IMG/VR virus record: IMGVR_UViG_3300022074_000363
Location: 1-24,470 of that record
Length of the DNA stretch: 24,470 nt
Strand: one strand, 5' to 3'
From: a virus
A model generated the notes under the pieces. The model made no database searches. It had not been told where the DNA came from and worked only from the letters and a program-made list of their open reading frames with translations. Of the stretch, positions 1,954 to 22,914 are shown piece by piece (position 1 is the stretch's first letter; each line of letters opens with the position of its first letter). The translations under genes were made by a program, and so were the position numbers.

Positions 1954-2583
1954 TCAAACCTGAATTGCTCGAATCTCTTTCAATTTATTCTGTAAAGCCT
2001 GAATATTTTTTTGCTTGTCCTGTCTTTGTTGTTGAATTTCAGACGGGTTTCCTTGTGGAACCATTTGTTGCTCTTGCTGTATTTTTGCATTCAATTGGCG
2101 AATTGCATCCTGTTTTTTCTTTCGAGCAGTATTTTGTTTCATTTGAGTCGCCATTTTTGCTCCTTCGGCAATATTCTGTTGGAGTTGCGATTCTTGTGCT
2201 TGTTTTGCTTCTTTGGTTTGTTGTTGCTTTTTCCGCCTTTCTTCCATTCTAAGTCTTCCTATTTCCTCGCTTTCTTTACCAACATCTGCAAGAATTCTTT
2301 CATTAGGTTGATTGGGGATATTAAAATTAGAGGGTAAATTAGGGGCCGAATTTGGAACTTTTGGCAAATTTAATTGTCGTTTGCCCTCTTCATTTAGATT
2401 AACCATACTTGGAACCTCTGCTACTTTTCTTTGTTTTTGGGCCGCTTGAGTCTCCTTCATCTGTTCCGTTCTTCTTTCTCTTTCCTTTTTTGCGGCCTTG
2501 CTTTCTCGGCTGAGAAATTTAATTTTGATAATATCATCTTCGTTTAATTCTCGTTTAGCAATAATATCCATCCATTCGTTCAT
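1954..2583 (-). CDS. Gln/Lys-rich coiled-coil protein, unknown function
   Basis: The protein has 209 residues. I chose ATG 2583 (MNEWMDIIAKREL) because AAGGAGTGA precedes it at good spacing; GTG 2592 lies inside that Shine-Dalgarno. A short helical N-terminus leads into a basic stretch (ESKAAKKERERRTEQM), then a Pro/Asn-rich linker around residues 70-95 (LPKVPNSAPNLPSNFNIPNQ), then a Gln/Lys-rich coiled coil to the end. It lies between the connector and the tail-completion genes, so it may be a neck-associated or internal virion protein. The biased composition makes homology calls unreliable, and I do not assign a role. Confidence 0.6.
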   Translation of the reverse strand: MNEWMDIIAKRELNEDDIIKIKFLSRESKAAKKERERRTEQMKETQAAQKQRKVAEVPSMVNLNEEGKRQLNLPKVPNSAPNLPSNFNIPNQPNERILADVGKESEEIGRLRMEERRKKQQQTKEAKQAQESQLQQNIAEGAKMATQMKQNTARKKKQDAIRQLNAKIQQEQQMVPQGNPSEIQQQRQDKQKNIQALQNKLKEIRAIQV

Positions 2584-2595
2584 AAATGTCACTCC

Positions 2596-3909
2596 TTAAT
2601 TTTCTATCAGGAAAACAATGTCTCCCTTTCCTGTAAGAATATCCATTCCTTCTTTTCTAAGAATATCATATTTTTCTTTGACTGAAATATTTCCGCCTGT
2701 TTCTGCGATAAGAATTGTTTGGTCGTCATGTCTTAAAATTTCAGCCGCAACTAATTTTGTAGCGGCTTCATGAATAGGTGCAGGAACTCTTGAATCTCCA
2801 GCAATATAGGAAATAATAATAGAATTTTGTGTATGGTAAGGATAGTCCCGTAAGAAAAATATTCTTCCTTCGTCCTTAATAGTCCAAAAAGAACCAAGTC
2901 TTTTCAGGTCTTGCTTATCCGTAAATTTAGTAATTGTTGCTAAAGTGGGAACAGAAGTGTTGGTAGCAATAAATATAACATCGCCGCTAACAGTGCCAGT
3001 TGTCGTCAAACTTAAGGTAATTAAAGTTGAAGAATCTATGCTTGAAATGGTTGCGGCGGTGGGAATATTGGTTCCCGATACAGCCATGCCAACAACTAAT
3101 TTACTTGAATCTGCAACAGTAAGAGCAGTAGAAGAGGAAGAGGCTGAACATGACTGTTTAGTCTTAATTTTGACCTTGCATTCCGACCCATCCTCTCCCG
3201 CCAACAGGGATGAAATGAGCAAAGTGGTGCTGTCTTCCGAGTCCTTTTGGGCAAAGAAAAGGTCAGAAATGGAAAGAGTATCAGAAATGAGGCTTTTTGC
3301 CGCAGTAGCCTTCGTAAAGGTAGAGGTCTTGGATGGAAATTGTTCGTTGATTAAAGCAACAATTTCATCATTCGTTGTCTTGATACCATAAGCATTATTA
3401 AATTCGCTGCTACTTAAAGAACCACCAATTGCGGATTCTGATAGCATTTCAAATTCAGTTCCGCTATTTGGCAATTGCAAAACAATAGAATGTATGTCTC
3501 TATAATTTTCAAGAAGTCCGATTTTTGCTTGAGCCGAAGCCAATTCTATGTATCTGTTTCCTTGCCAAACTCTCAAGGAGACGACTTTTCTTAACTTAAG
3601 AGTAGTCAATTTGATAAACCCAACATATCCACCGTAATACGTTTGCATTGGGTGATTTACAAATTCAAAATTATAATGTTCATCTTTGTGTAAAAGAGGA
3701 CGATAGGAACGCTTTACCTTTTCGTCAATCATTCCCTCTACTCTTTTAATAATTTCTCCTACTTGAGATTCGCTCGGAAATGTAGAAGAAGTAAAAGCAG
3801 GAACTTGTAGCATATTTGCGACAGCAGACTTATCAGTATAAAATCCAGAACCTGTGGCATAGTCTACATTAATTGCAGTATAGTCGCTTGGTGAATTTGT
3901 AATGCCCAT
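2596..3909 (-). CDS. Head-tail connector (adaptor) protein with an inserted beta domain
   Basis: This 437-residue protein starts at ATG 3909 in a TGATG overlap with the preceding stop, with GGGAGATGGT upstream. The N-terminal part (about residues 30-75, including IIKRVEGMIDEKVKRSYRP) and the C-terminal part (about 345-410, including SIIISYIAGDSRVPAPIHEA followed by a helix ending EILRHDD) match the helical plan of gp6/gp15-type connectors that dock under the portal. Those proteins are usually 100-200 residues; this one is far longer because of a middle region. Residues about 253-316 form a Ser/Thr-rich beta module (LTVADSSKLVVGMAVSGTNI) resembling a module common in phage virion proteins. It probably builds the neck between portal and tail. 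Connector assignment is by pattern and position. Confidence 0.6.
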   Translation of the reverse strand: MGITNSPSDYTAINVDYATGSGFYTDKSAVANMLQVPAFTSSTFPSESQVGEIIKRVEGMIDEKVKRSYRPLLHKDEHYNFEFVNHPMQTYYGGYVGFIKLTTLKLRKVVSLRVWQGNRYIELASAQAKIGLLENYRDIHSIVLQLPNSGTEFEMLSESAIGGSLSSSEFNNAYGIKTTNDEIVALINEQFPSKTSTFTKATAAKSLISDTLSISDLFFAQKDSEDSTTLLISSLLAGEDGSECKVKIKTKQSCSASSSSTALTVADSSKLVVGMAVSGTNIPTAATISSIDSSTLITLSLTTTGTVSGDVIFIATNTSVPTLATITKFTDKQDLKRLGSFWTIKDEGRIFFLRDYPYHTQNSIIISYIAGDSRVPAPIHEAATKLVAAEILRHDDQTILIAETGGNISVKEKYDILRKEGMDILTGKGDIVFLIEN

Positions 3910-6377
3910 CAAACCATCTCCCTTAACTCATCTTCTATTTCTTTAATTCCTGCTCGGATAGAGTCCATAAAAATAGCAAACTCTCCCTTTTGAACTCTTT
4001 TGAATTTAGATACGCCAATTTTAGGTTGTCTCTCAGGTCTAAATCCGTACATCGTTGTTGACCCTCTTGGAAGAAGTCTGGTTTCTGCTTCAACCAAAGA
4101 AAGTTGTTTATATTCTATAAATGAATATTTAGGATTTCCTTCCCTATCTTTGCCCAACTTGACCTTAATCATATACTTTGATAGATTTTTTAGAACCTTT
4201 AATGAATTTTTAAATGGAGATTTGCTTCCGCTTAGAAGAGAAATGATTTTTTTCTTGTCGTTTGCTTTAGCAGCATCAAAGAATTTTTTAGCGTTCTTAT
4301 CTCCTGTGATTTCTTTATATTCTTCAAAGCCTTTAATTTGTTTTACATTTCCCTTTCCAAAATCTAAACCAGATTTGAATTCTTTTTCTATCTTTTTGTG
4401 AGTTTTTCTAAGAGACTCATATGTTTCCTTATATGTAGAATACATCTCATCAACAATTTTCTTAAAATCTTTATATGAAAAAGACTTCTTGCTTGCGTCA
4501 AACTGTAAGCCTGCTATAATGGCTTTGACTCTTTCTTCGCTTTTAGCAAATTCTTTGAATGCGTATGATTTGTTCAGCATTTCTTCTAAATCATCTACCA
4601 TATCGTCAATATCAATCATCAATGACTTTTGGACATCATCAATAAATTGTTCTGTAAAATGCCCTTCTTTGTCTGTGATTCCTGCTTTAGCAAATATGCT
4701 ACGCCATTCAGGGCCTTTTTCTTTTATTTTTTCTAATTCTTTAATTTGCTTTGCTTTTTTATTTTTATCCATTTTTTCATCGGCTTGTAATGTTTGAATA
4801 GACTCATCAATTGATTCATCTAACGCTTCTTGCAGTCTTAGAATAGGATTAGAAAGAATATCACCGATAGAAAACTTATCATTTATTGGTCTGACTATAT
4901 CCATTCTTACATTTAGCCCCTTCAATTTTACTCTAACATTTCTTTTGTATTTTTCGGGAACTGCTAAATCTAACGCTGTCAAATCGCTACTTAAAACGAT
5001 TTTATCTAAATCTCTGGCTATTTCTCTACCAAGCGCAATAACTGCACTATTTGCTTCGTCTTTCTCTTTTTCAGACTTGTTAAAAACTCTGCTTAATTCT
5101 GTAGAGATGCTTTTTAAATCGCTAGAAATATTCTTAAGTCTGTTTTCTTTTCTTCCTGCATCCCCTAAGAAAGAGTAGGATTCAACGAGGCTATCAACCT
5201 TTTCAGAAATTTTACCTAAAAATTCTTGTTTTAGTTCAAGTGTTGATTTTTCGTTGCCCTCTTCTGCTTCAATCAACTTCATGGCATCGAAACCTGTATT
5301 TTTCAATTGCGATACAAATTGATTAAATTCTTTTTTATCACCGCTAAACAATTTTCCGGCCGCTTCTCCAACCTGTTTATCAATGCTAATATTTTTACCT
5401 CTCATGTTTTGAATAATATTTGCATAGACGTCAGTATAAGACGCAATTGCGGAACCCAATGTTTTAATAGATGTAGCGACGGCTAAATCCTTTTCAGCCA
5501 AAATTAATTTAGAAAGAGATTCTGCAACTTTTTCACTTTTTCTCAATTGATTTTTAGTAAATTGAGTTATTTCTTTTCCGCTATAAGAAGCCTTATTTTC
5601 AAGGTAATTTAAAGTTTCTGGTGAGGTGGTGATAGATTTTGTTGCTCTATCTTGGACTTTAACAATTCTGTTTAATTTAATATTGTTAAAACCTAAAGCA
5701 AATAATTTTAAAAGTTTGGTATCTACTTCTCTTTCTCTAATAGAATCAAATGCTTGACTAGTATCAAAATCAATTTCATCTCCTTCTATATCTAAGCCTT
5801 CAAAATTCAATTCTGTCTCATCTAACGAAATAGAATATGTATTTTTATCCAATCCCGTTCTTTGTTTAAGACGGCCTCCCTCACCCACAGTCTCTCCACT
5901 TTTAATATCAACATAATCTTCTAGTTTATTCTTGTAGGCGGAAAACTCTTGTTGATTTAAACCTTTGTTAGAATATGAAACTGACTGTTCTAAGTCTTCT
6001 GGCTCTTCTAAAATCCTTTGTCTAATTGACCCCCTTAATTCCTTTAGAGCGATATTAGGAAACATTGATTGTAAAGTTTCGACAATTTCTTTTCCTTTGG
6101 GATTCAAATTATCAATATCCAGATTCTCTAATTTTGTGTCTTTGATTTTGTTAACTGATGTCCTAATCAAATCTTTGAATGCCTTAGGCTTATTATTTTT
6201 AATAAATGTTTCTGTTAAATATTCTGGGATTTCTTCATAGTCTTTATTATTATCTTTTTGAACCAAGTCTTCGAAAATAAACTTGTATAGTTCTTGCGTG
6301 GCATATCGCTCATCAAATTCGACAGACGGGGGTTCTCCCCCACCTGCTGATTTAATGCGATAATAGAAGACTTTCAC
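3909..6377 (-). CDS. Large helical Lys/Glu-rich protein (822 aa), unknown function
   Basis: The start is GTG 6377, preceded by GAGGAATATAG that overlaps the upstream stop. The protein of 822 residues begins MKVFYYRIKSAGGGEPPSVE. It is almost entirely helical and rich in Lys, Glu, Asp, Ser and Ile. It has no membrane segment, no signal peptide and no recognisable enzyme motif. Several parts look like coiled coil (DKNKKAKQIKELEKIKEKG near residue 540; SLRKTHKKIEKEFKSG near 655). The last 90 residues are more mixed, with a short basic beta stretch (RPERQPKIGVSKFKRV). It sits between small structural genes and the connector, so a virion protein is likely, for instance an internal or ejected protein. 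It resembles the 782-residue protein in size and composition, but I saw no clear sequence match between them. Confidence 0.65.
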   Translation of the reverse strand: MKVFYYRIKSAGGGEPPSVEFDERYATQELYKFIFEDLVQKDNNKDYEEIPEYLTETFIKNNKPKAFKDLIRTSVNKIKDTKLENLDIDNLNPKGKEIVETLQSMFPNIALKELRGSIRQRILEEPEDLEQSVSYSNKGLNQQEFSAYKNKLEDYVDIKSGETVGEGGRLKQRTGLDKNTYSISLDETELNFEGLDIEGDEIDFDTSQAFDSIREREVDTKLLKLFALGFNNIKLNRIVKVQDRATKSITTSPETLNYLENKASYSGKEITQFTKNQLRKSEKVAESLSKLILAEKDLAVATSIKTLGSAIASYTDVYANIIQNMRGKNISIDKQVGEAAGKLFSGDKKEFNQFVSQLKNTGFDAMKLIEAEEGNEKSTLELKQEFLGKISEKVDSLVESYSFLGDAGRKENRLKNISSDLKSISTELSRVFNKSEKEKDEANSAVIALGREIARDLDKIVLSSDLTALDLAVPEKYKRNVRVKLKGLNVRMDIVRPINDKFSIGDILSNPILRLQEALDESIDESIQTLQADEKMDKNKKAKQIKELEKIKEKGPEWRSIFAKAGITDKEGHFTEQFIDDVQKSLMIDIDDMVDDLEEMLNKSYAFKEFAKSEERVKAIIAGLQFDASKKSFSYKDFKKIVDEMYSTYKETYESLRKTHKKIEKEFKSGLDFGKGNVKQIKGFEEYKEITGDKNAKKFFDAAKANDKKKIISLLSGSKSPFKNSLKVLKNLSKYMIKVKLGKDREGNPKYSFIEYKQLSLVEAETRLLPRGSTTMYGFRPERQPKIGVSKFKRVQKGEFAIFMDSIRAGIKEIEDELREMV

Positions 6378-6386
6378 CTATATTCC

Positions 6387-7037
6387 TCACATTAACCATT
6401 TTGCCCAAGCCGCACCCTTTTGGATTGCAGAGCCAAGATGTAGGCCACTTGAAGGAGGTTCATACGACATTTGACCATTATTTGGGTCAATCCAATATGG
6501 ACGCCCATAGCCGTCTGTTCCCGAAGGAGGGATAGGATAGCCGGAGCCGTTATTCATGGCCCCCTGCATCTGCTGGTATTGTTGCGTTTGTCCGGTGATT
6601 CCAGCGATAGCCATGCCAGCCGAAGGACCGCCTGCGCCACCAAAACCTTGAGATTCAAGGTATTGTTGTTTCGCAAGTTTTCGCTGGTTTATAACCTCTG
6701 TATTTAGGGCCACTGCTAGAATTTGTTGAATATCGAGTTCAATGTTTTCTTGCGTTATTTTCTCAAATTCTCTCATAGCATCAGGATGAATTTTTAGGCC
6801 TCCTGTGGTAGAATCTGTAGTAAAGGCTAAACTTGATAGCATCTGCGAAACTACTCTTTGAACGACATCCTCCATCATTTTCTCAAACGCCTGCAAAAAC
6901 TTTTCTCCGTGATATTGGAAAAATTCTTCTACGTGGTTATCCTGTAAAGAAAGAAGGTTATTCACATTCTTAAATTGTTGGTCATTCTGTGCTTGAACAG
7001 CATTTAATACTGTTTTGTTGCTTGTTCCGAGTGGCAT
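6387..7037 (-). CDS. Structural-type protein, helical N-terminus and Gly/Gln-rich tail
   Basis: This 216-residue protein starts at ATG 7037 in a TAATG overlap with the upstream stop, with AGGTGA just before. Residues 1-125 are helical (VEEFFQYHGEKFLQAFEKMM; LDIQQILAVALNTEVINQRK). The rest is low-complexity and rich in Gly, Gln, Pro, Asn and Tyr (GITGQTQQYQQMQGAMNNGS; GYPIPPSGTDGYGRPYWIDP), ending in a short amphipathic stretch. No family is recognised. The flexible tail could bind other virion parts. Its tight coupling to the zinc-cluster gene upstream suggests joint expression. Confidence 0.6.
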   Translation of the reverse strand: MPLGTSNKTVLNAVQAQNDQQFKNVNNLLSLQDNHVEEFFQYHGEKFLQAFEKMMEDVVQRVVSQMLSSLAFTTDSTTGGLKIHPDAMREFEKITQENIELDIQQILAVALNTEVINQRKLAKQQYLESQGFGGAGGPSAGMAIAGITGQTQQYQQMQGAMNNGSGYPIPPSGTDGYGRPYWIDPNNGQMSYEPPSSGLHLGSAIQKGAAWAKWLM

Positions 7038-7666
7038 TACTTTTCACCTGTCTTTTTGTTTAATAGTTCCTGAATACGCATATTAGCGTTTTGAATCTCA
7101 TTTGTTAGACGCTTGACTTCATCAATTGGCGTTTCCGTTTCTCTCATGTCGGGCGAGGTTATAAGATAACCGACTGATGAGAGCGAAGCAATATCCGTTT
7201 GCGAGAGGGAAGTTAATGGCCCCTTTTTTACCATTTGAGGCATTTTAGGTCTTGGAATAAATGCCTTGAAATCTAATCCGTGTTGTTCTGCAAGAATCTG
7301 CTGTTGTAGCATTTCCATTTGCTTGTGAACAGAAGCGTGTTTAGGGCAGTACGTCCCTCTTAACGGCCTTCCCTTTTCTACTCGGTCTAAAGGAATCGGA
7401 GGACGAAGAAAATCGCCCGGCTCCCAAACATGATGCATACCACAAACAACACACCTATCTTTTAGATTAAATTTGTAGCCGTATTTTACAAATAGAATAT
7501 TTTTCTTTTCAGGCATGAGAACCTTTGTGATTTCTTTTAGTTTTTTCTTAGGCTTAATTGAATCATATTTATATTCTTCAATCTGCCCCGAGGCTCTAAA
7601 TTGTTGCAATTTTGGCAAAAATGCCAACGCTGTTTGGTTGCTAATTAAATTCGGTTGCTGATACAT
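7037..7666 (-). CDS. Zinc-cluster protein, unknown function
   Basis: I start this gene at ATG 7666 (MYQQPNLISNQTALAF), giving 209 residues. A TTG at 7675, in a TATTGA overlap with the GTPase stop and three bases after AAAGGA, would add three residues and is a real alternative. Counting from the ATG, Cys72, Cys75, His78/His79, Cys107 and His110 form a CxxCxxHH...CxxH pattern (CVVCGMHH and TYCPKH) that looks like one zinc-binding site. A basic stretch (DSIKPKKKLKEITKVLMPEK) precedes it. The C-terminus is a coiled coil (LTNEIQNANMRIQELLNKKT). Its role is unknown; nucleic-acid binding or a structural zinc in a virion protein are both possible. It directly follows the GTPase gene. Confidence 0.6.
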   Translation of the reverse strand: MYQQPNLISNQTALAFLPKLQQFRASGQIEEYKYDSIKPKKKLKEITKVLMPEKKNILFVKYGYKFNLKDRCVVCGMHHVWEPGDFLRPPIPLDRVEKGRPLRGTYCPKHASVHKQMEMLQQQILAEQHGLDFKAFIPRPKMPQMVKKGPLTSLSQTDIASLSSVGYLITSPDMRETETPIDEVKRLTNEIQNANMRIQELLNKKTGEK

Positions 7667-7671
7667 AGTAA

Positions 7672-8334
7672 TCAATAGTCCTTTATCATTGTGATAATTC
7701 CTCTATAAACCATTTCGGGTTGTGATTTTGCTGATACAATATATTTGAAGCACGGTATTCCTTTATCATTTAATTTTCTCATGCCATATGTAAAGGGTTC
7801 AAAAATTTCATGTTTGTCTATTTCTTTTTCGGACTTATGTTTTTCTCCCCAAATGTCATATTTATTTGCCCAAATACCAACTGCGATAGGAAAATCTGAG
7901 TCTCTTTTCTTTTTGCCGTTTGACCATGTGTTTGAAATAATTGTATCTACTAAAAACTTCCATGCTAACTGATGGTCTAAATTTGAATTACTATCTAAAT
8001 GTCGGTGGTCAATCATAAAAACAACGTATTTTACTCGACGCTCTTTCATATCTTTTTCCCATTCTTTCCAGTAAATTGCTTCTCCTCCAATATCCGCACT
8101 CCTTACTGTATGGGAATCTCCATCCATTTTGATTGTTTTTCTTGAGGCTCTATGCTTTCCAATGGTTCTTTCTTGTATTGTAGGCACTTCTCCCCTTGTT
8201 CTTAATTGATGGCTAAGTGTTGTTTTGCCGACCATTGTTGCCCCATACACTCCAAAGTTAATTGCGTGAACTTTTTTGTAAAAACCTATGATTGCTTCGC
8301 CAACTAAAATGGCAAAGCCTGTCATTAACGACAT
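7672..8334 (-). CDS. Arf-like small GTPase with N-terminal membrane segment
   Basis: I chose ATG 8334 in a TAATG overlap with the preceding stop (220 residues); a GTG at 8346 would add four. Motifs of the Ras/Arf superfamily appear in order: P-loop GATMVGKT at residues 31-38, DIGGE at 81-85 (G3), NKYD at 157-160 (G4) and SAK at 201-203 (G5). DIGGE followed by a Trp-containing helix (EAIYWKEWEKDM) is the Arf-type form, but the usual catalytic Gln after GG is Glu. Residues 2-19 (SLMTGFAILVGEAIIGFY) are hydrophobic and likely anchor it in a membrane. These proteins switch between GTP and GDP states to recruit partners to membranes. Two small membrane-protein genes lie just upstream in the same operon. 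A role in virus exit or virion membrane contact is inference. GTPase identity is strong; the Arf subtype is good. Confidence 0.85.
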   Translation of the reverse strand: MSLMTGFAILVGEAIIGFYKKVHAINFGVYGATMVGKTTLSHQLRTRGEVPTIQERTIGKHRASRKTIKMDGDSHTVRSADIGGEAIYWKEWEKDMKERRVKYVVFMIDHRHLDSNSNLDHQLAWKFLVDTIISNTWSNGKKKRDSDFPIAVGIWANKYDIWGEKHKSEKEIDKHEIFEPFTYGMRKLNDKGIPCFKYIVSAKSQPEMVYRGIITMIKDY

Positions 8335-8549
8335 TAATGCCCCCACCCGTTCAACAAATTGTCAAACAGAAAACCCATGATATTTAAATCAAAAACACCC
8401 ATGATATTTCCAAACAAAAAACCAGCAACGGTACAAGTAATACCGTAGAACCAAGCCTTTGCTTTAAGAAAGAAAATATCGGCAGAATGCGCCCTAGTTT
8501 GATTATAGGCGTAGTCGGATTCAGAGAATCCCAGAAAGTCGCCAATCAT
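8334..8549 (-). CDS. Small membrane protein (71 aa)
   Basis: It starts at ATG 8549 with AGGTGATTAA directly upstream. After a short hydrophilic N-terminus with acidic and aromatic residues (SESDYAYNQTR), residues about 33-53 form a hydrophobic segment (WFYGITCTVAGFLFGNIMG), and a second, weaker one follows at about 57-67 (NIMGFLFDNLL). This predicts one membrane pass and possibly a re-entrant second segment. Its stop overlaps the GTPase start, so the two are probably translated together. A holin-like or GTPase-docking role is possible, but nothing in the sequence proves it. Confidence 0.65.
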   Translation of the reverse strand: MIGDFLGFSESDYAYNQTRAHSADIFFLKAKAWFYGITCTVAGFLFGNIMGVFDLNIMGFLFDNLLNGWGH

Positions 8550-8557
8550 TTAATCAC

Positions 8558-8938
8558 CTACTGCAAAGCCGCTAAAAATTCGTTTCCAATAGAATTTTCA
8601 GCCGTTTCGTAAGTAGGTTGTTGGGCAACGACAGAAGTTTTATACGTTTCACGTATTTTACTTTTCTGTGCCTCTTCCTTTGATTTTCTTTCCCAGTATG
8701 CCTTAATTCTTTGGTCAAGCAAATACATTTCAATTCTATCATTGAGGGCAATATCAAAAAGTGCTTTTAAAACCATAATAGCACCAACTGTAATCAACCC
8801 AAAGAGAATCGCATGGGCTAAAGTGCCATGTGGGAAACCTGTCCCATAATTTGCGTAAAAGAAAACATTTGCTCCGCTAACGGTCCCGACAAAGAGAATC
8901 GTCATAACTAGACGAGTTTCTGTATTTAATGCTGGCAT
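8558..8938 (-). CDS. Two-pass membrane protein (126 aa)
   Basis: The start is ATG 8938 with a near-ideal Shine-Dalgarno (GAGGTGATATTATG). Two membrane segments are visible, about residues 9-29 (RLVMTILFVGTVSGANVFFY) and 40-62 (LAHAILFGLITVGAIMVLKA). A charged C-terminal half with a short coiled coil follows (LLDQRIKAYWERKSKEEAQK). Two hydrophobic helices plus a charged tail resemble a holin or an anchor for cytosolic partners. It heads a three-gene membrane cassette with the 71-residue protein and the Arf-like GTPase. No family is recognised by sequence. Confidence 0.65.
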   Translation of the reverse strand: MPALNTETRLVMTILFVGTVSGANVFFYANYGTGFPHGTLAHAILFGLITVGAIMVLKALFDIALNDRIEMYLLDQRIKAYWERKSKEEAQKSKIRETYKTSVVAQQPTYETAENSIGNEFLAALQ

Positions 8939-8947
8939 AATATCACC

Positions 8948-9229
8948 TCAAGCGAATTCAACTGAACATGCCACGCTTCCAGATTGTTTCTTAAAGAACA
9001 ATCCATTTCTTGCTAAAACACCGTGCATATCAAATTCAACTGTTTGATTTGCCGTCAAAACAATTCTGGCGATTTCTGTTCCTGCGGCACTTGTTCCATC
9101 AAATACCCTAATTTCAGCCGTGCTTGAGCCTGTTTCACAAGCATGAATTGAAACCAATAAACACTGTTCGCTTGAAACGATTTTATCTGCCGCTAAAACA
9201 CCGCTTGACCTGCAAGTCTGACCCGCCAT
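8948..9229 (-). CDS. Probable capsid decoration / head fibre-type protein
   Basis: This 93-residue protein starts at ATG 9229 with AGGTGA at good spacing. It has no charged coils and alternates hydrophobic and polar residues, suggesting a beta sandwich. The segment STAEIRVFDGTSAAGTEIAR and the ending SGSVACSVEF follow a pattern common in small tailed-phage proteins that sit on the capsid surface. Four cysteines (6, 23, 31, 87) might form disulfides or bind metal. It lies after the capsid gene among similar small beta proteins. A candidate promoter lies directly upstream, so it may be expressed separately from them. Confidence 0.55.
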   Translation of the reverse strand: MAGQTCRSSGVLAADKIVSSEQCLLVSIHACETGSSTAEIRVFDGTSAAGTEIARIVLTANQTVEFDMHGVLARNGLFFKKQSGSVACSVEFA

Positions 9230-10282: not shown

Positions 10283-11614
10283 TCATTGAATGTTGGTGAT
10301 TTTACCCTGTCCTCTGAAGAAAGAACAGCCAACTTCACCAATTGTTCGGTATAAGGCTCTGTTTCCGAGAGTCCCGACACCAAATGGATTTCCGTTTGCG
10401 ATACCATCCTCGAAATATTGGGTTGGTTTCATAACAGACAGCCAAAGGTGGTCAGTATCAAGGAATAATAGGTCCGATAACTTCGTGGATGCGCCACCCG
10501 TTTGTGGCATATCCTTAACAGGAATCAAAGGAATATCGTAATAGGTTGCCACACGGAAACCGACTTCTTGACCCTTTGTTCCACGAACACCGTTCACGGT
10601 TGGAACAATTTCTTTTCGGTCCATAAATCGCTCTTGGCTCTGCAAAAGGTCAGCAAGGGCTTGAATGGTATCATATCCTGTAAGAATGACCTTGGGGGAA
10701 CCACCAGCAAGACGAAGGTTGCGAATCATGTCATTTAGACGAGTAAGCGTCAAAGAACGAACATCTCCCGAAGCATAGCCGGAACCAAAGTCCACTTCTG
10801 CATCAAGGAAAGAAGCGGCAGTAAATCGCTCATTACCGTAAATTTTAGCATCAACAGTAGAAGCAGAAGCCCCAGTATCGCCTAAAACAGTATCGCTGGC
10901 TAAAATTTCAGCACGGTTTGAAATAACCTTCATCAAAGAGGTATAGTTGTTTCCGATGTTGGTCAAAGCAGCCGTTTGATAGTTTTCAAGCGGCATAACC
11001 AGCATTTTGTTTTGAACCTCAGCATGGTGCTTACCCATATCTTCACGCATTTGCGCTCTAATATCGCCAATTCCATCGTCAATTTGAGCCATTTCCATAG
11101 CCAATTCGCTGAAATCGAATTGGTGTGCAACAACCTTTGGACTCATGTTTAATTGAGCATAGGTTGGAGCAATTGGGCCTAATCCATCTTGAGCCGTAGA
11201 AAGGGCGGCATTTTCGGGAACACCACCGATTAAATCGGCTCTTGGGGAATCTGCACCCAAAATGTCTAAAGTCTCTGAACCCGAGGTAGCAACAGAAAAC
11301 AAATTTCCTGAACCACCAGCAGGGCGGGACTTCAAAACTCGCCAACCGCTTGAGGTATATGGTCGCTTTGAAATCATTGAAAGTGCGTTCACTTCACGGT
11401 TGAGCATAGACCAAACCTTCTGCCCATAAACGATGTTGTAAAGGGCGGAAACATCGGAAATTCCGCTTCCCGAAAAGGAAGGAGAACCGTCGTGTCCGGT
11501 AAAAATACCGCCAACAGCACCGGCTTGCTTTAAAAGAGCATTACCGGCGGGTAAGTTGTTAATTCCATAAGTCTGTGCTTCTAAGTCTGCAATTGTATTA
11601 ATATATCCAGTCAT
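10283..11614 (-). CDS. Major capsid protein, probably HK97-fold
   Basis: This 443-residue protein starts at ATG 11614 with GAGGTGATT just upstream, the strongest form of Shine-Dalgarno in the window. It directly follows the protease-scaffold gene, the normal place of the major capsid protein. The N-terminal 50 residues are Gly/Ser-rich and flexible. The middle contains a long helix with acidic and Met residues (HQFDFSELAMEMAQIDDGIG, then RAQMREDMGKHHAEVQNKML), consistent with the spine helix, and a later part (DMIRNLRLAGGSPKVILTGY, then YYDIPLIPVKDMP) typical of the A-domain of encapsulin/HK97-like shells. Several hundred copies form the icosahedral head. I see no separate delta domain. The call is strong by context and good by sequence. 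Confidence 0.85.
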   Translation of the reverse strand: MTGYINTIADLEAQTYGINNLPAGNALLKQAGAVGGIFTGHDGSPSFSGSGISDVSALYNIVYGQKVWSMLNREVNALSMISKRPYTSSGWRVLKSRPAGGSGNLFSVATSGSETLDILGADSPRADLIGGVPENAALSTAQDGLGPIAPTYAQLNMSPKVVAHQFDFSELAMEMAQIDDGIGDIRAQMREDMGKHHAEVQNKMLVMPLENYQTAALTNIGNNYTSLMKVISNRAEILASDTVLGDTGASASTVDAKIYGNERFTAASFLDAEVDFGSGYASGDVRSLTLTRLNDMIRNLRLAGGSPKVILTGYDTIQALADLLQSQERFMDRKEIVPTVNGVRGTKGQEVGFRVATYYDIPLIPVKDMPQTGGASTKLSDLLFLDTDHLWLSVMKPTQYFEDGIANGNPFGVGTLGNRALYRTIGEVGCSFFRGQGKITNIQ

Positions 11615-12934: not shown

Positions 12935-15439
12935 TTATTTCTTGGGAAGGGGCAACTCATTGTACCCATCATCATAAATGTTCCACAATCCTTTATCCTT
13001 ATCCTTATCTGCCGGACTTTGTTTATATCCGGTGAAAGCAATCCACATTTTACCTTCTTCGGCAGGGATTACTCTAAAGTGAATCTTTGTTTCAAATTTA
13101 TTTCCTTCTAAGAAGTATTCGTGGTAGCCTGTTCTTTGAACGCCTAACTTGACTTCTCCTTCATCAATGGTTTTTTCTTTGTCTAAGTCTTTGCCAACAA
13201 TAGCGGGATATTTCCCTGCTTTACCAAAGAGGTCAAAAATATCTTCGTCTTTATCTAAGTCAATGAACCAATTAAGAGTTTCATCTTTTAGTTTAATAAT
13301 CATATTTAAATTCCCATCCTTTCTTAGATAAATCTTAAATTGGCCCTCTCTATACTCTTCGGGAGTTTCATATTTCTTTATTTCTGCCATGATTTTATTT
13401 GAGTCATGAACAAACTTATTATTTCTAAACAAAACACCGTGGTCTTTTCCTCTATCTTCTAACCAATCTTTAAGCCTTGCTGATTTAGACTCTAATAAAT
13501 CTTCATACAAATCTTTAGTGAATTTATTGCCTGCTAAAAACTTATGAAGTTCTTGCGGAGTCTTATCTCCTGCTTTCTTAAGATAATTAAAAATAGCAAC
13601 AATAATTTTACTTTGCTTTGTCTTCATTATTTCTTCTGCCTGAGCCTTCCACATATCTAAATCAATTAAAGCATTCTTAGACATTAAATTATCTTCCTCG
13701 AACCCATAGACTGTGAACCCGTCAAAGTCTCCTTTGATGATAACAGAAGCCTCACCGTGAATATGGTCGGTAATTTTTATTCCTTTCGTTAATGCTTCAA
13801 CAGAGTATTTTAAAGATTTCTTATTATCTTTTGAAAGCATTTCTAAAGTCACTAATTTTTCAGGAGTATCTACTTCTGGAACTTCAATAACTTTTGCCGA
13901 GAATACAGTATATTTACCATTAGATTCTTTGACTTCATCTACCTTTACACGAACAATATCACCAACGCTAACAGAAATCTTAGTGTTTAGTGCTTTACCT
14001 ACATCCATATACTTTTTACCGTTTAGTTCTTGGCCTTCGGCCTCTTCCTCTAATGGACCGGCCCCTAAAGTATATGAGTATAGGTTGCTTTTAGTTTTCT
14101 TTTTGTCAAGAACAATCAAGTCTAAATCAACAAACTTCTTCCACTTTATCCATTTAGGATTCTTCTTTGTTCCCTCAAAATAAGTTGATGTAGCGTCTTT
14201 AATGACAACACCTTCTGCTGTCGGCATTTCCATAATAGCCTTTGCATATTCTTCAATATCTTTTATGCTATCAGCCATCCTCGTATCTTTCTTTGACGGA
14301 AAATTAAGAACATCACTTGAATGAATAGAATAATTGTTGAACATAATGTTTAATCTTTGTTGTAATGTATCGTCAACTATTTTTTTATCATTATGACGCA
14401 TAATATCGAACATGTGTGCCTTTAAAGTCGCATCCTTATACTTGTCTTTAAAAACATGAGCGATTGTATCAGCACGATGGAGGGCTTCTTTATCATCAAA
14501 GAGAATCAATTCACCATCAAGAATACAATCCCCAAAGTGTTTCTTCTCCATCTCTTTAACAATATCTTTACACTTGGAAGTAATGTCCTTCTCATTATAT
14601 GAATAAACAGTCACCTTATTATCAATCTTATGGATTTGTATTCTCATGCCGTCATATTTTTCTTGAACAACATACTCTCCACTAAAGCCTTTTAATTCAT
14701 CCATATCACCAATATCAAAAATGCGATACATTGGTTTGTTAGGTAAAATGAAATCCGATTGCGATTTTTCTTCTTCGGACTTTGTTAAGTCCATGTCCTT
14801 AATATCTTTTAAGTCTTCCCAATCTTCTTTTTGATGTTTAGAGAAAAATAGTAATTCTAAAAAGTCAAGAGCCGCCTTAACTTTCTTTTCTACCTTCTTT
14901 GAGTCTTTTCCATCCCCGTACTGCTCGATAATATAGAGGGCGATGTCGTCCGATTGTAGGTCAAGCCCCTTAAGGCCGTCTGTGATTTCGTCAGGCTCCA
15001 TGTCTTTAATGCTATAAATGTCTGGAGATAGGGCTTTATCGTCTTCTCTCATAGCATAGTGAACAAATTTGACCATTAACTCTGGAGATTCTAATAATGC
15101 TTCAAGAACGTCCCCTTTGAACTTTTTAGCAAAAGGGTCAGAAACGAACTCAGAAGACATGCGTAAGGCTTTGATACCTTCATATACCTTTTCAGCAAAA
15201 TTAGAAGTAGGGTCGGAGGATTCGTTGTTTTCCAAATCTTCTTCTTGAATGTAATCTTTTAATTCTTCGCCTAACTCACTTGAATTATCGTAGAGGCTTT
15301 GAATCTCTTCAATTGATTTACGCCAACGACCGCCGTATTCTTTGGGGTCTGTTCTTGCAGAAAGATATGCGACTCTTGTTTTTTCAAAGAGTCGTAAGAT
15401 TTCTTCCGAAGGGCTATCCTTCTCAATGAGATAAGCCAT
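12935..15439 (-). CDS. ATP-dependent DNA ligase with long N- and C-terminal extensions
   Basis: The 834-residue protein starts at ATG 15439, shortly after the upstream stop, with only a weak GTGATT ribosome site. The nucleotidyltransferase core lies at about residues 255-440: motif I EKYDG at 260-264 (Lys261 takes the AMP), DGEL at 308-311, MFDIM at 343-347, EGVVIKD at 409-415 and WIKWKK at 430-435. An OB-fold follows (to about 520; VGDIVRVKVDEV). This core seals DNA nicks using ATP. Residues 1-230 are helical and acidic and unlike usual ligase DNA-binding domains. Residues 608-685 may form a winged helix, and 698-803 resemble the LigD phosphoesterase fold but lack its His-rich active site. 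It lies inside the head gene cluster, which is unusual. The ligase core is certain in kind; the extensions are inferred. Confidence 0.85.
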   Translation of the reverse strand: MAYLIEKDSPSEEILRLFEKTRVAYLSARTDPKEYGGRWRKSIEEIQSLYDNSSELGEELKDYIQEEDLENNESSDPTSNFAEKVYEGIKALRMSSEFVSDPFAKKFKGDVLEALLESPELMVKFVHYAMREDDKALSPDIYSIKDMEPDEITDGLKGLDLQSDDIALYIIEQYGDGKDSKKVEKKVKAALDFLELLFFSKHQKEDWEDLKDIKDMDLTKSEEEKSQSDFILPNKPMYRIFDIGDMDELKGFSGEYVVQEKYDGMRIQIHKIDNKVTVYSYNEKDITSKCKDIVKEMEKKHFGDCILDGELILFDDKEALHRADTIAHVFKDKYKDATLKAHMFDIMRHNDKKIVDDTLQQRLNIMFNNYSIHSSDVLNFPSKKDTRMADSIKDIEEYAKAIMEMPTAEGVVIKDATSTYFEGTKKNPKWIKWKKFVDLDLIVLDKKKTKSNLYSYTLGAGPLEEEAEGQELNGKKYMDVGKALNTKISVSVGDIVRVKVDEVKESNGKYTVFSAKVIEVPEVDTPEKLVTLEMLSKDNKKSLKYSVEALTKGIKITDHIHGEASVIIKGDFDGFTVYGFEEDNLMSKNALIDLDMWKAQAEEIMKTKQSKIIVAIFNYLKKAGDKTPQELHKFLAGNKFTKDLYEDLLESKSARLKDWLEDRGKDHGVLFRNNKFVHDSNKIMAEIKKYETPEEYREGQFKIYLRKDGNLNMIIKLKDETLNWFIDLDKDEDIFDLFGKAGKYPAIVGKDLDKEKTIDEGEVKLGVQRTGYHEYFLEGNKFETKIHFRVIPAEEGKMWIAFTGYKQSPADKDKDKGLWNIYDDGYNELPLPKK

Positions 15440-16440: not shown

Positions 16441-18789
16441 TTATAGCCCTCCTAATCCTAATTGTCTCAAATTATCTTGTGTTCTTTTGTTATTATAGAT
16501 TCTTAAGAGTTTTTTTCCTTCTGCAGTGTTTTCAGGAATATTGCGAATAATAGACATAAAACCAGTAGAGGGACGCTTAATGACAGACTGTTTCAATTTA
16601 TCTATCAATTTTTCAGTCTCACCTTCCTTCCCTTCTTCAAATGGTTTTTCCTGTAGATTTTTTACCTTCTCGGCAATTTCTATGTTTTTGTCGAGAGTTT
16701 CTAAATATTTGTCAAACTGCTTCAATTTAGATGACATTCCACCTTCACCAGATATGCTGCCCTCTTCTTCCGGCTTATTCTTTTCTTCCTCAACCAATTT
16801 TTTCAATTCATCATACACATATTTACGAACATACTTTGATGCACTTTTTTGGTCTTTAGGGTTCTCCAGTAAATTATTTAATCTTCTCTCTTTTACTGTT
16901 TTTCTTGAGAGTTTTTTCGTTCCAGTTCCTTCGAGAATATCATTAATTCTATCATTGTAATACACCACTCTACCAAAATCCTCTGAAAAATTAATAGTTT
17001 GATTTAGTTCAAGAAACAATTCCATCCCAACATCTAATAATTTTTCTTTGTTTTCAGGGGTAATTTTGTCTCTATGTATTTCAGGGATATACATTGAGCC
17101 TTTATTTTTATCAAATAGAGTTTCAGAAATAAAATCCTTTGCAGAAGATTCACTATAGAAGTTTTCTAAAATAAGTGAAACTGACTCACGAAAATCTTCA
17201 TTACGAGCAACCTTATTTGCAAAATCTTTCATTTTATCTTTAATTTCACCCTCATTGGATTTATCAGCATCTCTTCTTTTAGTGTCTTTTCTGAATTTTA
17301 CTGCATCTGCTTGTTGCTTAGTTAAATCAATATCCTCCAACATTTGTGAATAAAATTCAATAGTAGACTTTACGAATCCATTCCAGTATTCAGCATCTCT
17401 TGATTTTAAATCAAATTGTTCTTTACCTCTTGCTCTTTCCGCTTCATCAGTCTCTTTTGCAAATTTATCCTTAAATCCAGAGGTTCCTGTTTTTAAATCT
17501 ACCTTAAACTCTTTTCGTTCCTCTACTAAGGTTTCAAGGCGAGACATAAGTTTTCTAGCCGCCTTTTTCTTAGTTTCCGAAAAATTAGAACTAGTGTATA
17601 TTTTCTTTAATAATTCGTAAATTCTATAAACTGCTCCCCTATGAGCATCGTGAATAAGTCTAATTGGAGACAAGCGTTTTTTTCTTGGGTTGGCATCCAC
17701 TTTAGTGTTTAAAACAGCGTTAAAATATTCACTAAATTCACTACCTTTAGGATAGGGCAGTTCAATCTTAGTTTTTAAGTTTCTTTCCTGAGCATCAGCA
17801 TCTAAAATTTCTTTACTATCAGCAATCAGTCTCTTAAGTTCTTTCATATCTTTATCGTCAAAAAGAGTAGAAACTAACTCTATTTGATTAAGTGGTTTAT
17901 TGACAGTCTCGACTTCTTTTCTCGACTTAATACGATTTAATACTTCTTCGGGCTTTAAAGTGCCTAAACCCAAACCTCTTAACTGAGCGTCAAACGCTTC
18001 TTTAAGTCCTTCTGAGTATTTTACTGCTCTATAACCAGCATCTTGTTGGTCTATTTTTTTCCGACCTATTGAAAACGTCTCTCCTTTATCAAAAGAAATA
18101 ACATATCTAAAAATAGCATTAGCATCTTGAATAACATCAAGATATTTTTCCAAATTTGCCTTTGTGGGCTTCTTGATATAATTTAAAATTGCACTATCGA
18201 ATTTTTCTTGAGATGCAACTTTCTTATTTTCTTTGATTTTTTCGTCAATTTCTTTCAATGTATTTCTATTGTCTTCCAACTTATCTGCAATCTTTTTTGA
18301 AGCCTCTGTAATTTTTTGACTATAATCAGAAATTGTTTTAGACTGCACTTTATTATATTCTTTACTTTTTTTTGCAGATTTTTCTCTAAGAGTTTTAATT
18401 TGATTTAAGATTTGTTTTGCCTCTTCACCTTCTACAACTTTTCTTTTTTCCTGTAAAGACCTAATTTGTGAGGATATTTTATCTATTTCTTTTTTCTTTT
18501 CAGACAACATTTTTTTATCCTCATCAGATAAATCCCCCGTTGATTTTTGAGCATCGGATAATTTTTTTATTAGTTTTTTATTATCTTCTAAGATTTGTTT
18601 TCGCATATTTTTAAATTCTTCAGGAATATCCTTTTCCCTCACTTCTCTATTTTTTCTTCCCATAGCCGCCAATAATAAATCGGCATTAGAGGTTTCTCTC
18701 TTTAAAATATTATCATCTAACGATTCAGCAAAAAACTTCAAAAGATAATATAAATTATCCTCTTGCTTCGCAATAATCGCTTGCCACAT
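16441..18789 (-). CDS. Large Lys/Glu-rich coiled-coil protein (782 aa), unknown function
   Basis: The start is ATG 18789, with only a modest GAGGCTG site upstream. The protein begins MWQAIIAKQEDNLYYLLKFF. Residues about 55-205 are an extended coiled coil with many Lys/Glu pairs (KKMLSEKKKEIDKISSQIRS; KIADKLEDNRNTLKEIDEKI). Middle parts are mixed helical (SPIRLIHDAHRGAVYRIYEL), and a second coiled coil lies near 660-730, around an acidic Gly-rich linker (EEEGSISGEGG). No enzyme motif, signal or membrane segment is seen. It follows the portal and a small gene, where many viruses place head-morphogenesis or internal proteins. It may be an internal virion protein released with the DNA; this is inference. 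Confidence 0.65.
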   Translation of the reverse strand: MWQAIIAKQEDNLYYLLKFFAESLDDNILKRETSNADLLLAAMGRKNREVREKDIPEEFKNMRKQILEDNKKLIKKLSDAQKSTGDLSDEDKKMLSEKKKEIDKISSQIRSLQEKRKVVEGEEAKQILNQIKTLREKSAKKSKEYNKVQSKTISDYSQKITEASKKIADKLEDNRNTLKEIDEKIKENKKVASQEKFDSAILNYIKKPTKANLEKYLDVIQDANAIFRYVISFDKGETFSIGRKKIDQQDAGYRAVKYSEGLKEAFDAQLRGLGLGTLKPEEVLNRIKSRKEVETVNKPLNQIELVSTLFDDKDMKELKRLIADSKEILDADAQERNLKTKIELPYPKGSEFSEYFNAVLNTKVDANPRKKRLSPIRLIHDAHRGAVYRIYELLKKIYTSSNFSETKKKAARKLMSRLETLVEERKEFKVDLKTGTSGFKDKFAKETDEAERARGKEQFDLKSRDAEYWNGFVKSTIEFYSQMLEDIDLTKQQADAVKFRKDTKRRDADKSNEGEIKDKMKDFANKVARNEDFRESVSLILENFYSESSAKDFISETLFDKNKGSMYIPEIHRDKITPENKEKLLDVGMELFLELNQTINFSEDFGRVVYYNDRINDILEGTGTKKLSRKTVKERRLNNLLENPKDQKSASKYVRKYVYDELKKLVEEEKNKPEEEGSISGEGGMSSKLKQFDKYLETLDKNIEIAEKVKNLQEKPFEEGKEGETEKLIDKLKQSVIKRPSTGFMSIIRNIPENTAEGKKLLRIYNNKRTQDNLRQLGLGGL

Positions 18790-20733: not shown

Positions 20734-20898
20734 TCAGTAAGGCTTCGTCCAAAGCATCGCTTCATCAATTTGACAAGTAAAACACCTATTGGTGATTGTT
20801 TCTTTTTTACATTTTCTACAAACAGTAGCATATCTAATTTTCTTAGGTAGTTTTGTTCTCACTTTATGTTTGAAAATATCGTAGTGTTGCCGAGGCAT
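20734..20898 (-). CDS. 54-residue zinc-ribbon protein
   Basis: A short frame starts at ATG 20898 in a TAATG overlap with the stop of the preceding gene and ends with TGA at 20734. AGGAGAGG lies upstream. It begins MPRQHYDIFKHKVRTKLPKK and contains CRKC and CFTC (Cys27, 30, 39, 42), a compact CxxC-x8-CxxC zinc ribbon. The N-terminus is basic. Such tiny ribbons bind nucleic acid or protein; its place just before the portal suggests a packaging or regulatory role. Start overlap, ribosome site and motif all support a real gene. Confidence 0.7.
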   Translation of the reverse strand: MPRQHYDIFKHKVRTKLPKKIRYATVCRKCKKETITNRCFTCQIDEAMLWTKPY

Positions 20899-21581
20899 TA
20901 ACGACCTCTCCTAATTCTTCTTTGTTCGTCTTCTCTACGCTCTCTGTCTTTTAGTTCTTGCTCTCTTCGCTTTCTTTGTGAAGCGGTTTGTCTTTGACTA
21001 CGAGTTTTCTTTTGAGAAGTTTGCCTATTTTGTTTTCTTTGGCCCTTTCTTCCTGTATATTTATCAGACGTTCTTGCCCTTTGTTGAGCCATCATTCGCT
21101 CTTGATTTTTTCTCTGTCTTTCCTGTTCAAGTTTTCGCATTCGTTCATTCTCTTCTTCTTCTTTTATTCTTTTACGGTAATTATTAAAATTGTCCCTTGC
21201 TTCTAAAAATTCAGGGTTTTCAAACAATTTGTCATAAAATTCAGTTTCTTTGTGGATAGGCACTTTTAATCGTAAAACACGGTCTTTTTCATTATCATAT
21301 TCCTTTTCATCGCTGTTGAGTGCATCTACGTATATTCCTGTATACTCTTTAATAAATTCTTCTAATGACAACTGTTCAAAATTTTCTTTACTTACAGCCT
21401 CAACTAATTCGTCATACATCCTTTGCTTAAACATAGGCTGAATGACTTCCATACTCATTTTCTCATCAATATCTTCACTTAATTTATAGTCATTTGATTC
21501 GTAAAGTTTCCCATATATATCAATATATGAATTTACAAGTTCTCCTATTGATTTTTCTTTTTTGATAATATTAAACCACAT
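20898..21581 (-). CDS. Basic coiled-coil protein (227 aa), unknown function
   Basis: It starts at ATG 21581, overlapping the end of the LAGLIDADG gene by eleven bases, with GGAGGGATG upstream. Residues 1-120 are mixed helical and acidic (MWFNIIKKEKSIGELVNSYI; EEFIKEYTGIYVDALNSDEK). From about 125 the chain becomes a highly charged helix (YRKRIKEEEENERMRKLEQE), then a basic Arg/Gln/Lys-rich tail (TSQKKTRSQRQTASQRKRRE) ending RRIRRGR. The tail could bind DNA. It lies between terminase and portal, so a packaging accessory is plausible. No family is recognised. Confidence 0.6.
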   Translation of the reverse strand: MWFNIIKKEKSIGELVNSYIDIYGKLYESNDYKLSEDIDEKMSMEVIQPMFKQRMYDELVEAVSKENFEQLSLEEFIKEYTGIYVDALNSDEKEYDNEKDRVLRLKVPIHKETEFYDKLFENPEFLEARDNFNNYRKRIKEEEENERMRKLEQERQRKNQERMMAQQRARTSDKYTGRKGQRKQNRQTSQKKTRSQRQTASQRKRREQELKDRERREDEQRRIRRGR

Positions 21582-22914
21582 TTTGCATCCCTCCGATTTG
21601 TTCCATAGAATCCATCACCGACATTTTGCAATTGTCTTTGTATTTTTGAATATTATCCAAGTAAATTCCCTCTTTAGCGAAATCAAAACCAACATGGTCT
21701 TTATGGTTCTCCCACTTCATCAGTTTGAAGATTTCATCACAGCGTTCTTTATACCACGCTTCTTTTTTGAAACCCTTCTTCATTCTCACTAACTCAAGAA
21801 GCAATTCTGCATTTCCCTTTTTCATTCTAAGATGTGGTAAGCATTTAGTTAAGAGGCTATGCACATCGTCTTGAGAATAAAAGTTTAAACGATTGACGGG
21901 GCGAGTATCTTGCGGAGACTTTTGATTTAGATGTAATTTTCCGAAACCAATATCCTTATGGATTTCTTCCATGAATACTCTACCTCTATCGCCCGTAGCG
22001 ACTAATCCTACTCTTGGGTTATGGCTTCTATCCATTGTAATATATCCGTCAGAATCAATAAATGCCGCAGTGTAGGCCCAAATGTTTTTCTTGAGCATAT
22101 CTGGCAATTTGTAATGGCTACCTTCCACTTCACCAACATCCATTTTTTTAATCATTCCTTTAATAATTCTGGTAGAAGTATTTTTGTGCAAAGTTGTCGG
22201 CATTCTGTCATAAATCTGCCCTACGCCAATTCCCGGATTTTCACAGATAGTTTCAAAAATAAAGTCATATGTTCTTTCTTTCTTTGACTTGATAAGTGAT
22301 TGGTCTGTTATTGATTTAATGACTTGCCTAAAATGTTTTCTGGCAGAACGAATATCCTTTTCTAATTTAGCAAAATCTGATGAGAAAGCCATCCCATCTT
22401 GATTTAATGTCGCCTCCCACATCTTACAAAGAGAATCAACAACCTGCCTTCTTGTTGGCACATCATCAATCTTGTTTAACTTTTGTAGGTCTTTCTCATT
22501 AAATCGCATTTTAAGTAGAGGAACTTCATACGGAGCAATCCAGTAAATAGACTTAATGCATTTAGAAATGTGGTCAGAATAACCATCAATGACTGTATCA
22601 ATTGCCTTTGCCATCTTAGTCCTATGTTCTCCTTTCAATTGCCTTCGGGCTTTTCTCATCTTTTTGATAAGGTCAGGAATAGTCTGCCCATCAACGGTAT
22701 ATTCAGATGGAAAGACTTGAAGTTGCTTTCTTGCTTCGGTGGCATTGATATTAAGGTTCTTGGAAAGGTTAGTGATTGCTTCATAATCGGACATAACATG
22801 CGTAAAACTCTTACTGGTCATTTCTTGTAATTCTCTTTCTTTTTCCGCTAATTCCTTGAGTCTTGCGGCGGCTTCGTCCTTTTCTTCAGGACTTAATTTA
22901 TTAGAAATCACCAT
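21571..22914 (-). CDS. Winged-helix protein with C-terminal LAGLIDADG domain
   Basis: The start is ATG 22914, with GAGGTGAATATAAC just before. The 447-residue protein has three parts. Residues 1-210 are helical, with coiled coil near the start. Residues about 215-270 look like a winged helix (DFIFETICENPGIGVGQIYD, then STRIIKGMIKKMDVGEVEGS). Residues about 279-385 form a single LAGLIDADG-type domain: AAFIDSDGYI at 283-292, where Asp289 is the likely metal ligand, followed by strand and helix blocks and KGNAELLLELVRMKKG. It lies between terminase and portal. There are no intein splice motifs, so this is a free-standing protein. It may be a homing nuclease or a domesticated DNA-binding packaging factor. 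The LAGLIDADG call is good; the role is open. Confidence 0.75.
   Translation of the reverse strand: MVISNKLSPEEKDEAAARLKELAEKERELQEMTSKSFTHVMSDYEAITNLSKNLNINATEARKQLQVFPSEYTVDGQTIPDLIKKMRKARRQLKGEHRTKMAKAIDTVIDGYSDHISKCIKSIYWIAPYEVPLLKMRFNEKDLQKLNKIDDVPTRRQVVDSLCKMWEATLNQDGMAFSSDFAKLEKDIRSARKHFRQVIKSITDQSLIKSKKERTYDFIFETICENPGIGVGQIYDRMPTTLHKNTSTRIIKGMIKKMDVGEVEGSHYKLPDMLKKNIWAYTAAFIDSDGYITMDRSHNPRVGLVATGDRGRVFMEEIHKDIGFGKLHLNQKSPQDTRPVNRLNFYSQDDVHSLLTKCLPHLRMKKGNAELLLELVRMKKGFKKEAWYKERCDEIFKLMKWENHKDHVGFDFAKEGIYLDNIQKYKDNCKMSVMDSMEQIGGMQNVV

Follow-up and report, generated by a model that had tools for sequence, protein, structure and literature searches.

A putative Arf-like GTPase in a fixed five-gene cassette within the head operon of magrovirus-like tailed viruses

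The locus and the partner genes

The window, by which we mean the whole stretch of DNA that was analysed, is a virus record of 24,470 bases (IMG/VR IMGVR_UViG_3300022074_000363) and forms one long minus-strand operon. Its genes encode, in this order, the large terminase subunit, the portal, an ATP-dependent DNA ligase, an HK97-type protease, the major capsid protein and small head-region proteins, followed by the cassette described here and by adaptor-like and further genes. The cassette lies between the head-region and adaptor genes, and these flanks are kept even in viruses that lack it. An earlier note, made from the sequence alone, had described three ORFs in the setting of a tailed-virus structural operon, and both descriptions hold: all three ORFs are present, all on the minus strand (Table 1), and the operon is of the head/neck type.

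Table 1. Positions of the cassette genes, their flanks, the GTPase motifs and the N-terminal tags in the window
Feature	Position	Strand	Remarks
HK97-fold major capsid protein	10283..11614	-	Basis of the tree; also served to find relatives that lack the cassette
Left flank, small head-region protein	8948..9229	-	Common to cassette-lacking viruses
TMa, 126 aa	8558..8938	-	Two membrane segments; C-terminal tail charged, with NEFLAALQ at its end
TMb, 71 aa, small membrane protein	8334..8549	-	Invariant RAHSAD motif
Putative Arf-like GTPase, 220 aa	7672..8334	-	Conserved ATG at 8334; based on G motifs, alignment and predicted fold
Hydrophobic helix at the N-terminus of the GTPase (residues 3-22)	8269..8328	-	AlphaFold2 helix H3-22; invariant Glu13
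G1 / P-loop GATMVGKT	8221..8244	-	GxxxxGKTT in 116/116 distinct sequences
G3 DIGGE (ADIGGE)	8080..8094	-	Some of the deepest-branching relatives have DxGGQ
G4 NKYD, guanine specificity	7855..7866	-	NKxD in 116/116
G5 SAK	7726..7734	-	116/116
Zinc-finger-like protein, fourth cassette gene	7037..7666	-	Conserved ATG 7666; ORF listed from TTG 7675
6387 protein, 216 aa, fifth cassette gene (coiled/glycine-rich)	6387..7037	-	Conserved N-terminal half, Gly/Pro-rich C-terminal half
Right flank, adaptor-like protein	2596..3912	-	Common to cassette-lacking viruses and HVTV-1 gp125
Tag	20898-21581		N-terminal MWFNIIKK of the ORF at these positions
Tag variant	16441-18789		N-terminal MWQAIIAK of the ORF at these positions
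Tag variant	1954-2583		N-terminal MNEWMDIIAK of the ORF at these positions

Hydropathy supports the two small membrane proteins that the earlier note had seen next to the GTPase, here called TMa and TMb. Two segments stand out in TMa (mean 2.35 and 1.75); of those in TMb, one is clear (1.62) and the other weak (1.11). The same note had the GTPase gene overlap both membrane genes. This is correct for TMb, whose stop codon shares one base with the ATG of the GTPase gene (TAATG), but TMa and TMb are 8 bases apart in the window, and the overlap of TMb and GTPase is the only one among these three genes. Some relatives carry about 290-940 bases at the TMb/TMa/GTPase junction region. In the zinc-finger-like protein, CxxC and CxxH are invariant (116 of 116 relatives). 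Profile searches matched none of the cassette partners to known GAPs, GEFs, coats, holins, exclusion proteins or to ArvB or ArvC.

Two further ORFs of the operon deserve mention. An 834-aa protein inside the head operon (window positions 12935-15439) contains the ATP-dependent DNA ligase domain (DNA_ligase_A_M, E 8e-29); at the comparable place, the interval before the protease, the haloarchaeal virus HVTV-1 encodes a protein of 1,313 aa that carries the annotation zeta toxin. The ORF at 21571-22914, between terminase and portal, contains AAFIDSDGYITM, which resembles a LAGLIDADG-type endonuclease motif, while a Pfam search gave no match of this ORF to that family.

Sequence and predicted fold of the GTPase

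The start codon of the GTPase gene is most likely the conserved ATG; a GTG at 8346, 12 bases upstream, is not conserved. Met1 and the following Ser are invariant in a 59-row alignment (A7), and so are G6, F7 and E13 further along the N-terminus. The G1, G3, G4 and G5 motifs, from which the earlier note had recognised a P-loop GTPase, are upheld by the relatives: G1, G4 and G5 without exception (Table 1), G3 by its DxGG core, with D81, G83 and G84 invariant in A7. Since NKxD is found in every member, guanine specificity is indicated rather than an AAA-type ATPase. The position of the catalytic Gln is occupied by Glu in most members and by Gln in a deep-branching group; at least 6 of the 116 have Gln. 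The Q61E exchange in Ras is not known to abolish hydrolysis, and thus a Glu at this position alone does not mean a dead enzyme.

Profile searches with the window GTPase alone gave weak matches (MMR_HSR1, E 0.0037; Ras, E 0.018), and its relatives reached E 1.2e-5 to 9e-4 (MMR_HSR1, Roc, Arf, SRPRB, Ras). The Pfam Arf profile (PF00025) did not match the window protein, and its best match to a relative (E 2.1e-4) was no better than those of MMR_HSR1 or Roc. An earlier AlphaFold model, built from a narrow alignment of 87% mean column identity, had reached a pLDDT of 51 and was replaced by an AlphaFold2 model from a diverse alignment (mean pLDDT 74.9, pTM 0.76), which displays a complete Ras fold, that is, a six-stranded alpha/beta G domain with a continuous helix (H3-22) directly ahead of beta-1 (E25-31). 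The N-terminal hydrophobic segment noticed earlier is thereby recovered as a predicted helix, with a hydropathy of 1.89 and a moderate helical moment of 0.30.

A Foldseek search of the PDB retrieved about 1,500 chains at E < 0.001 (E 1.6e-9 to Rab33), and among the matches listed all were small GTPases, G-alpha-type proteins or fusions thereof; the fold check that the earlier note had proposed thus yielded a small GTPase and not another fold. Among the 50 BFVD fold matches listed, all came from giant or related large eukaryotic viruses. With VIA-align, the first 31 rows were Arf/Arl proteins or Arf fusions (Z 15.2-16.0), followed by an Asgard Arf, Rab and Rag structures at Z 14.3-14.9, a gap near the tie limit, so that the ranking speaks for an Arf-like type without proving it. 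In the structural alignments with Arf/Arl proteins, identity was about 12-20%. Several of these alignments run through the N-terminal helix (1ksg, model residues 6-220; 4zi2, 9-220; 9c59, 8-220), which was aligned with the N-termini of Arl2, Arl3 and Arf1. Motifs and predicted fold together support the Arf-like type named in the earlier note, and by the same evidence ORF 7672-8334 is a small GTPase that is predicted to bind and hydrolyse GTP.

One could imagine such a protein as a GTP-dependent chaperone or checkpoint of head assembly, in which the hydrophobic helix would be incidental and without a membrane role. Its position among head genes would suit this, as would partners that include a zinc-finger-like and a second soluble-looking protein. 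However, two conserved membrane proteins always accompany the GTPase and several residues within the helix are invariant, and we consider this explanation very unlikely.

Distribution and evolution of the cassette

In 80 relatives the order TMa-TMb-GTPase was kept wherever the contig spans it, and two further genes follow. The conservation of the three-gene order in viral relatives, which the earlier note had put forward as a check, was therefore found in every relative with enough flank. Yet the three genes, although in fixed linkage as that note had it, are not the whole unit: iterated profiles over all fetched loci detected all five genes, including those at 7037-7666 and 6387-7037, in all of the 205 loci with sufficient flanking sequence. 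Overlapping stretches of the same contigs are among these loci, which thus represent fewer independent viruses. A three-gene unit was accordingly rejected. In some relatives (L009, L025, L031 and L042) extra ORFs separate TMb from the GTPase gene, or the GTPase gene from that of the zinc-finger-like protein, most of them bearing an N-terminal tag of the MSWxDILK type (see below); the five-gene set is unbroken there.

To avoid picking only GTPase carriers, loci were also fetched through the capsid protein, with that of HVTV-1 as anchor, and counted if at least 4.3 kb lay downstream. All five genes were present in 21 of these loci and none in 30; partial sets did not occur (0 loci). The cassette-lacking loci have the flanking genes in the same order, and the two cassette flanks surround a large variable protein. 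The idea that these sister viruses have diverged GTPase copies was rejected, since ten cassette-lacking records gave no GTPase-profile match anywhere and eight inspected loci had no small P-loop protein in the interval. In a capsid-protein tree rooted with HVTV-1, the 27 representatives of the carriers group together as one clade with support 0.978. One change is enough to account for where the cassette occurs, with absence as the ancestral state. Because of this single clade, one acquisition fits best, i.e. the cassette would have been gained once, by the ancestor of one large magrovirus clade.

The GTPase is under strong constraint. Between the window and locus L003, pN was 0.065 for the GTPase, 0.253 for the capsid protein, 0.266 for TMa and 0.284 for the zinc-finger-like protein, and against L034 and L226 the capsid protein was about as conserved as the GTPase. 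Thus, over these comparisons, conservation of the GTPase equals or exceeds that of the capsid protein.

Such constraint resembles that of structural proteins and, with the strict position between head and adaptor genes, might indicate that the five proteins are virion components. They would then form a membrane-active head/neck complex that docks on or opens the host membrane at entry for DNA delivery, with the GTPase as conformational lock. A GTP switch would, however, be costly in a particle without nucleotide supply, we know of no precedent, and in 30 sister loci the head operon is the same but lacks the cassette. We regard a role within the virion as unlikely. The sister viruses bear on lysis or exit timing as well, for which two small late membrane proteins side by side would be a natural starting point: TMa and TMb could be a holin-like or pore-like pair whose opening the GTPase triggers. 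Against this, the cassette is situated inside the head genes and not in a separate lysis unit, profile searches of the window gave no holin or endolysin match, and viruses without the cassette must exit, too. A lysis timer appears quite unlikely to us.

The carrier viruses

Magroviruses (Magrovirales) were recognised as tailed dsDNA viruses of about 90-110 kb with PolB, an ATP-dependent DNA ligase and a chaperonin, PolB being split as in the Aoguangviridae, for which this has been described (PMC10768690). The cassette carriers include contigs of 92-98 kb. All 14 viral contigs tested have PolB, which is split into two pieces in nearly all carriers of the cassette, and Cpn60 was present in 13 of 14 marine contigs; the major capsid protein of the window is related to that of HVTV-1 (27%). 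PolB, Cpn60, the ATP-dependent ligase and the HVTV-1-related capsid protein together fit an assignment of the carriers to the magroviruses, viruses of Poseidoniales, and their hosts are probably abundant uncultured marine archaea. As the cassette-lacking sister group has PolB and Cpn60 as well, it is probably magrovirus-like, too. MCM was discarded as a magrovirus marker, as it gave only sub-cut-off matches on ORFs of about 310-325 aa.

Two contigs stood out. IMGVR_UViG_3300021958_000021 (184,733 bases; loci L025 and L087) is about double the length of the usual genome. It carries the cassette region in two different copies, together with two sets each of PolB and Cpn60, and probably represents two viral genomes joined in assembly. 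The other, NZMJ01000024.1 (L101), is binned as Maricaulis, encodes a GTPase of 80% identity and is probably a misbinned virus contig. It was the only contig found when 84,980 species were scanned with strict peptide patterns, and a cellular origin through close relatives was dismissed on these grounds.

A further feature of these viruses is a tag of roughly M(x)W-x-[DN]-I-L-K ("MSWxDILK") at the N-terminus of many otherwise unrelated proteins. It was found on 171 of 2,209 predicted genes in 160 loci (L001-L080, L175-L254), whereas the rate at which it occurs inside proteins would predict about 0.1%, and the tagged genes span 76 sequence families if the first 15 residues are ignored. On three near full-length contigs (G012, G015, G016) all 47 tagged genes lie on the strand of the GTPase, the late strand, and none on the other. 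Internal proteins of phage T4 bear a capsid targeting sequence, and by analogy the tag could be a targeting signal for proteins packaged into the head.

Comparison with known systems

The closest working parallel is the ArvA/ArvB/ArvC (OapABC) system of Haloferax volcanii, in which an Arf-like small GTPase with an N-terminal membrane-active helix is encoded in an operon with a Zn-ribbon protein (PMC10927574). It drives the formation of membrane vesicles, and its loss changes vesicle output (PMC10927574). The likeness is one of architecture: putative Arf-like GTPase, predicted N-terminal helix and zinc-finger-like partner. In contrast to ArvABC, the viral unit is virus-encoded, is located in a head operon and has other partners, namely the pair TMa and TMb, a CxxC/CxxH protein and the 6387 protein. 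Neither ArvB (PF09846) nor the ArvC Zn-ribbon (PF09845) was found in any of 11 viral records, while both profiles matched the H. volcanii control; the place after the viral GTPase is taken by a different protein, the one with CxxC/CxxH.

This parallel might also be read the other way, namely that the viral GTPase is a dominant decoy of a host Arf/ArvA-type GTPase and serves host takeover or superinfection exclusion by altering the host membrane or surface. ArvA-type GTPases are indeed widespread in archaea and shape membranes (PMC10927574). In addition, the change from Gln to Glu might alter cycling. Genes for takeover tend to be early, variable and mobile, whereas the cassette lies on the late strand, always keeps its place, never occurs in part and shows high conservation. 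A decoy is, in our view, decidedly unlikely.

With Arf, Arl and Sar1 of eukaryotes and Asgard archaea the viral GTPase shares the fold, the N-terminal helix directly before strand 1, DxGG and GKTT. It differs from them in the Glu that most viral members have in place of the catalytic Gln, in a Ser rather than Gly at position 2 and in its G5, which is of the SAK type as in Ras/Rab. Small GTPases in dsDNA viruses have a counterpart in the Ras/Rab-like proteins of giant eukaryotic viruses (e.g. the mimivirus Rab, 5xc5). Those viruses, however, belong to an unrelated realm. Their GTPases are mostly of the Rab/Ras/Ran type, and to our knowledge no conserved membrane module within a morphogenesis operon includes them. 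HVTV-1, a haloarchaeal tailed virus of the Druskaviridae, has a related capsid protein and the same order of capsid and adaptor genes. Its interval holds one small protein, gp124, whose N-terminal segment is hydrophobic; the cassette is absent and no GTPase-profile match was obtained anywhere in HVTV-1.

A possible role in assembly or exit

Since the viral unit has ArvABC-like parts but other partner families, we propose, tentatively and at somewhat less than an even chance, that the five genes are a late morphogenesis module that acts as a membrane-recruitment switch when virions are assembled or leave the cell. What we infer here is that the GTPase cycles, that its helix inserts into the membrane, that the proteins form a complex, and which step they serve. 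The GTPase would work like Arf, Sar1 or ArvA, so that its GTP state releases the N-terminal helix, which would insert into the host membrane at its inner face. TMa and TMb would be docking partners for the GTPase, the Zn-binding protein its regulator or effector and the 6387 protein an adaptor to capsids. The outcome could be a membrane site that recruits capsids for assembly or a membrane deformed for exit. For magroviruses, head-tail virions that lack an envelope have been predicted (PMC10768690), so that one would not expect budding of the usual kind.

In favour of the switch we count the Ras fold with its N-terminal helix, the complete G motifs, the all-or-none linkage, the place in the head operon, the monophyly of the carriers and the constraint; ArvABC adds a precedent for a GTPase with a Zn-ribbon partner in archaeal vesicle formation (PMC10927574). 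Against it we count the invariant Glu and the moderate moment of the N-terminal segment, the Glu at the catalytic Gln position in most members, the failure of the partners to match profiles of GAPs, GEFs, coats or ArvB/ArvC, and the predicted lack of an envelope. It is possible, though rather doubtful, that these viruses evolved or captured a whole GTPase-driven membrane-recruitment machine, with switch, receptors, Zn regulator and capsid adaptor, which assembles or releases non-enveloped virions at the archaeal membrane. By analogy, and as doubtful, such a machine might be the viral equivalent of Arf/COP or of vesiculation by ArvABC.

Small GTPases as such are familiar proteins, and giant viruses are known to encode some. 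We know, however, of no tailed virus whose head operon holds a fixed five-gene membrane module of the Arf-like type, and of no GTPase-driven membrane-recruitment machine in any of the Caudoviricetes. The earlier remark that the GTPase is not a standard head-tail virus gene agrees with the lack of any match to it in 50,697 phage records. The magrovirus literature that was covered yielded no mention of a GTPase; Philosof 2017 and Prabhu 2025 lie outside this coverage, and an earlier annotation is possible.

Taken together, the fixed linkage of an Arf-like switch with four partners, two of them membrane proteins, suggests a switch-controlled membrane step in the making or release of particles. 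The five-gene module is a concrete and testable candidate for how archaeal tailed viruses assemble and leave their cells, and it is of relevance because its carriers probably infect very abundant uncultured marine archaea. An Arf-type switch in viruses of prokaryotes would furthermore bear on the spread of such switches and on the shaping of archaeal membranes.
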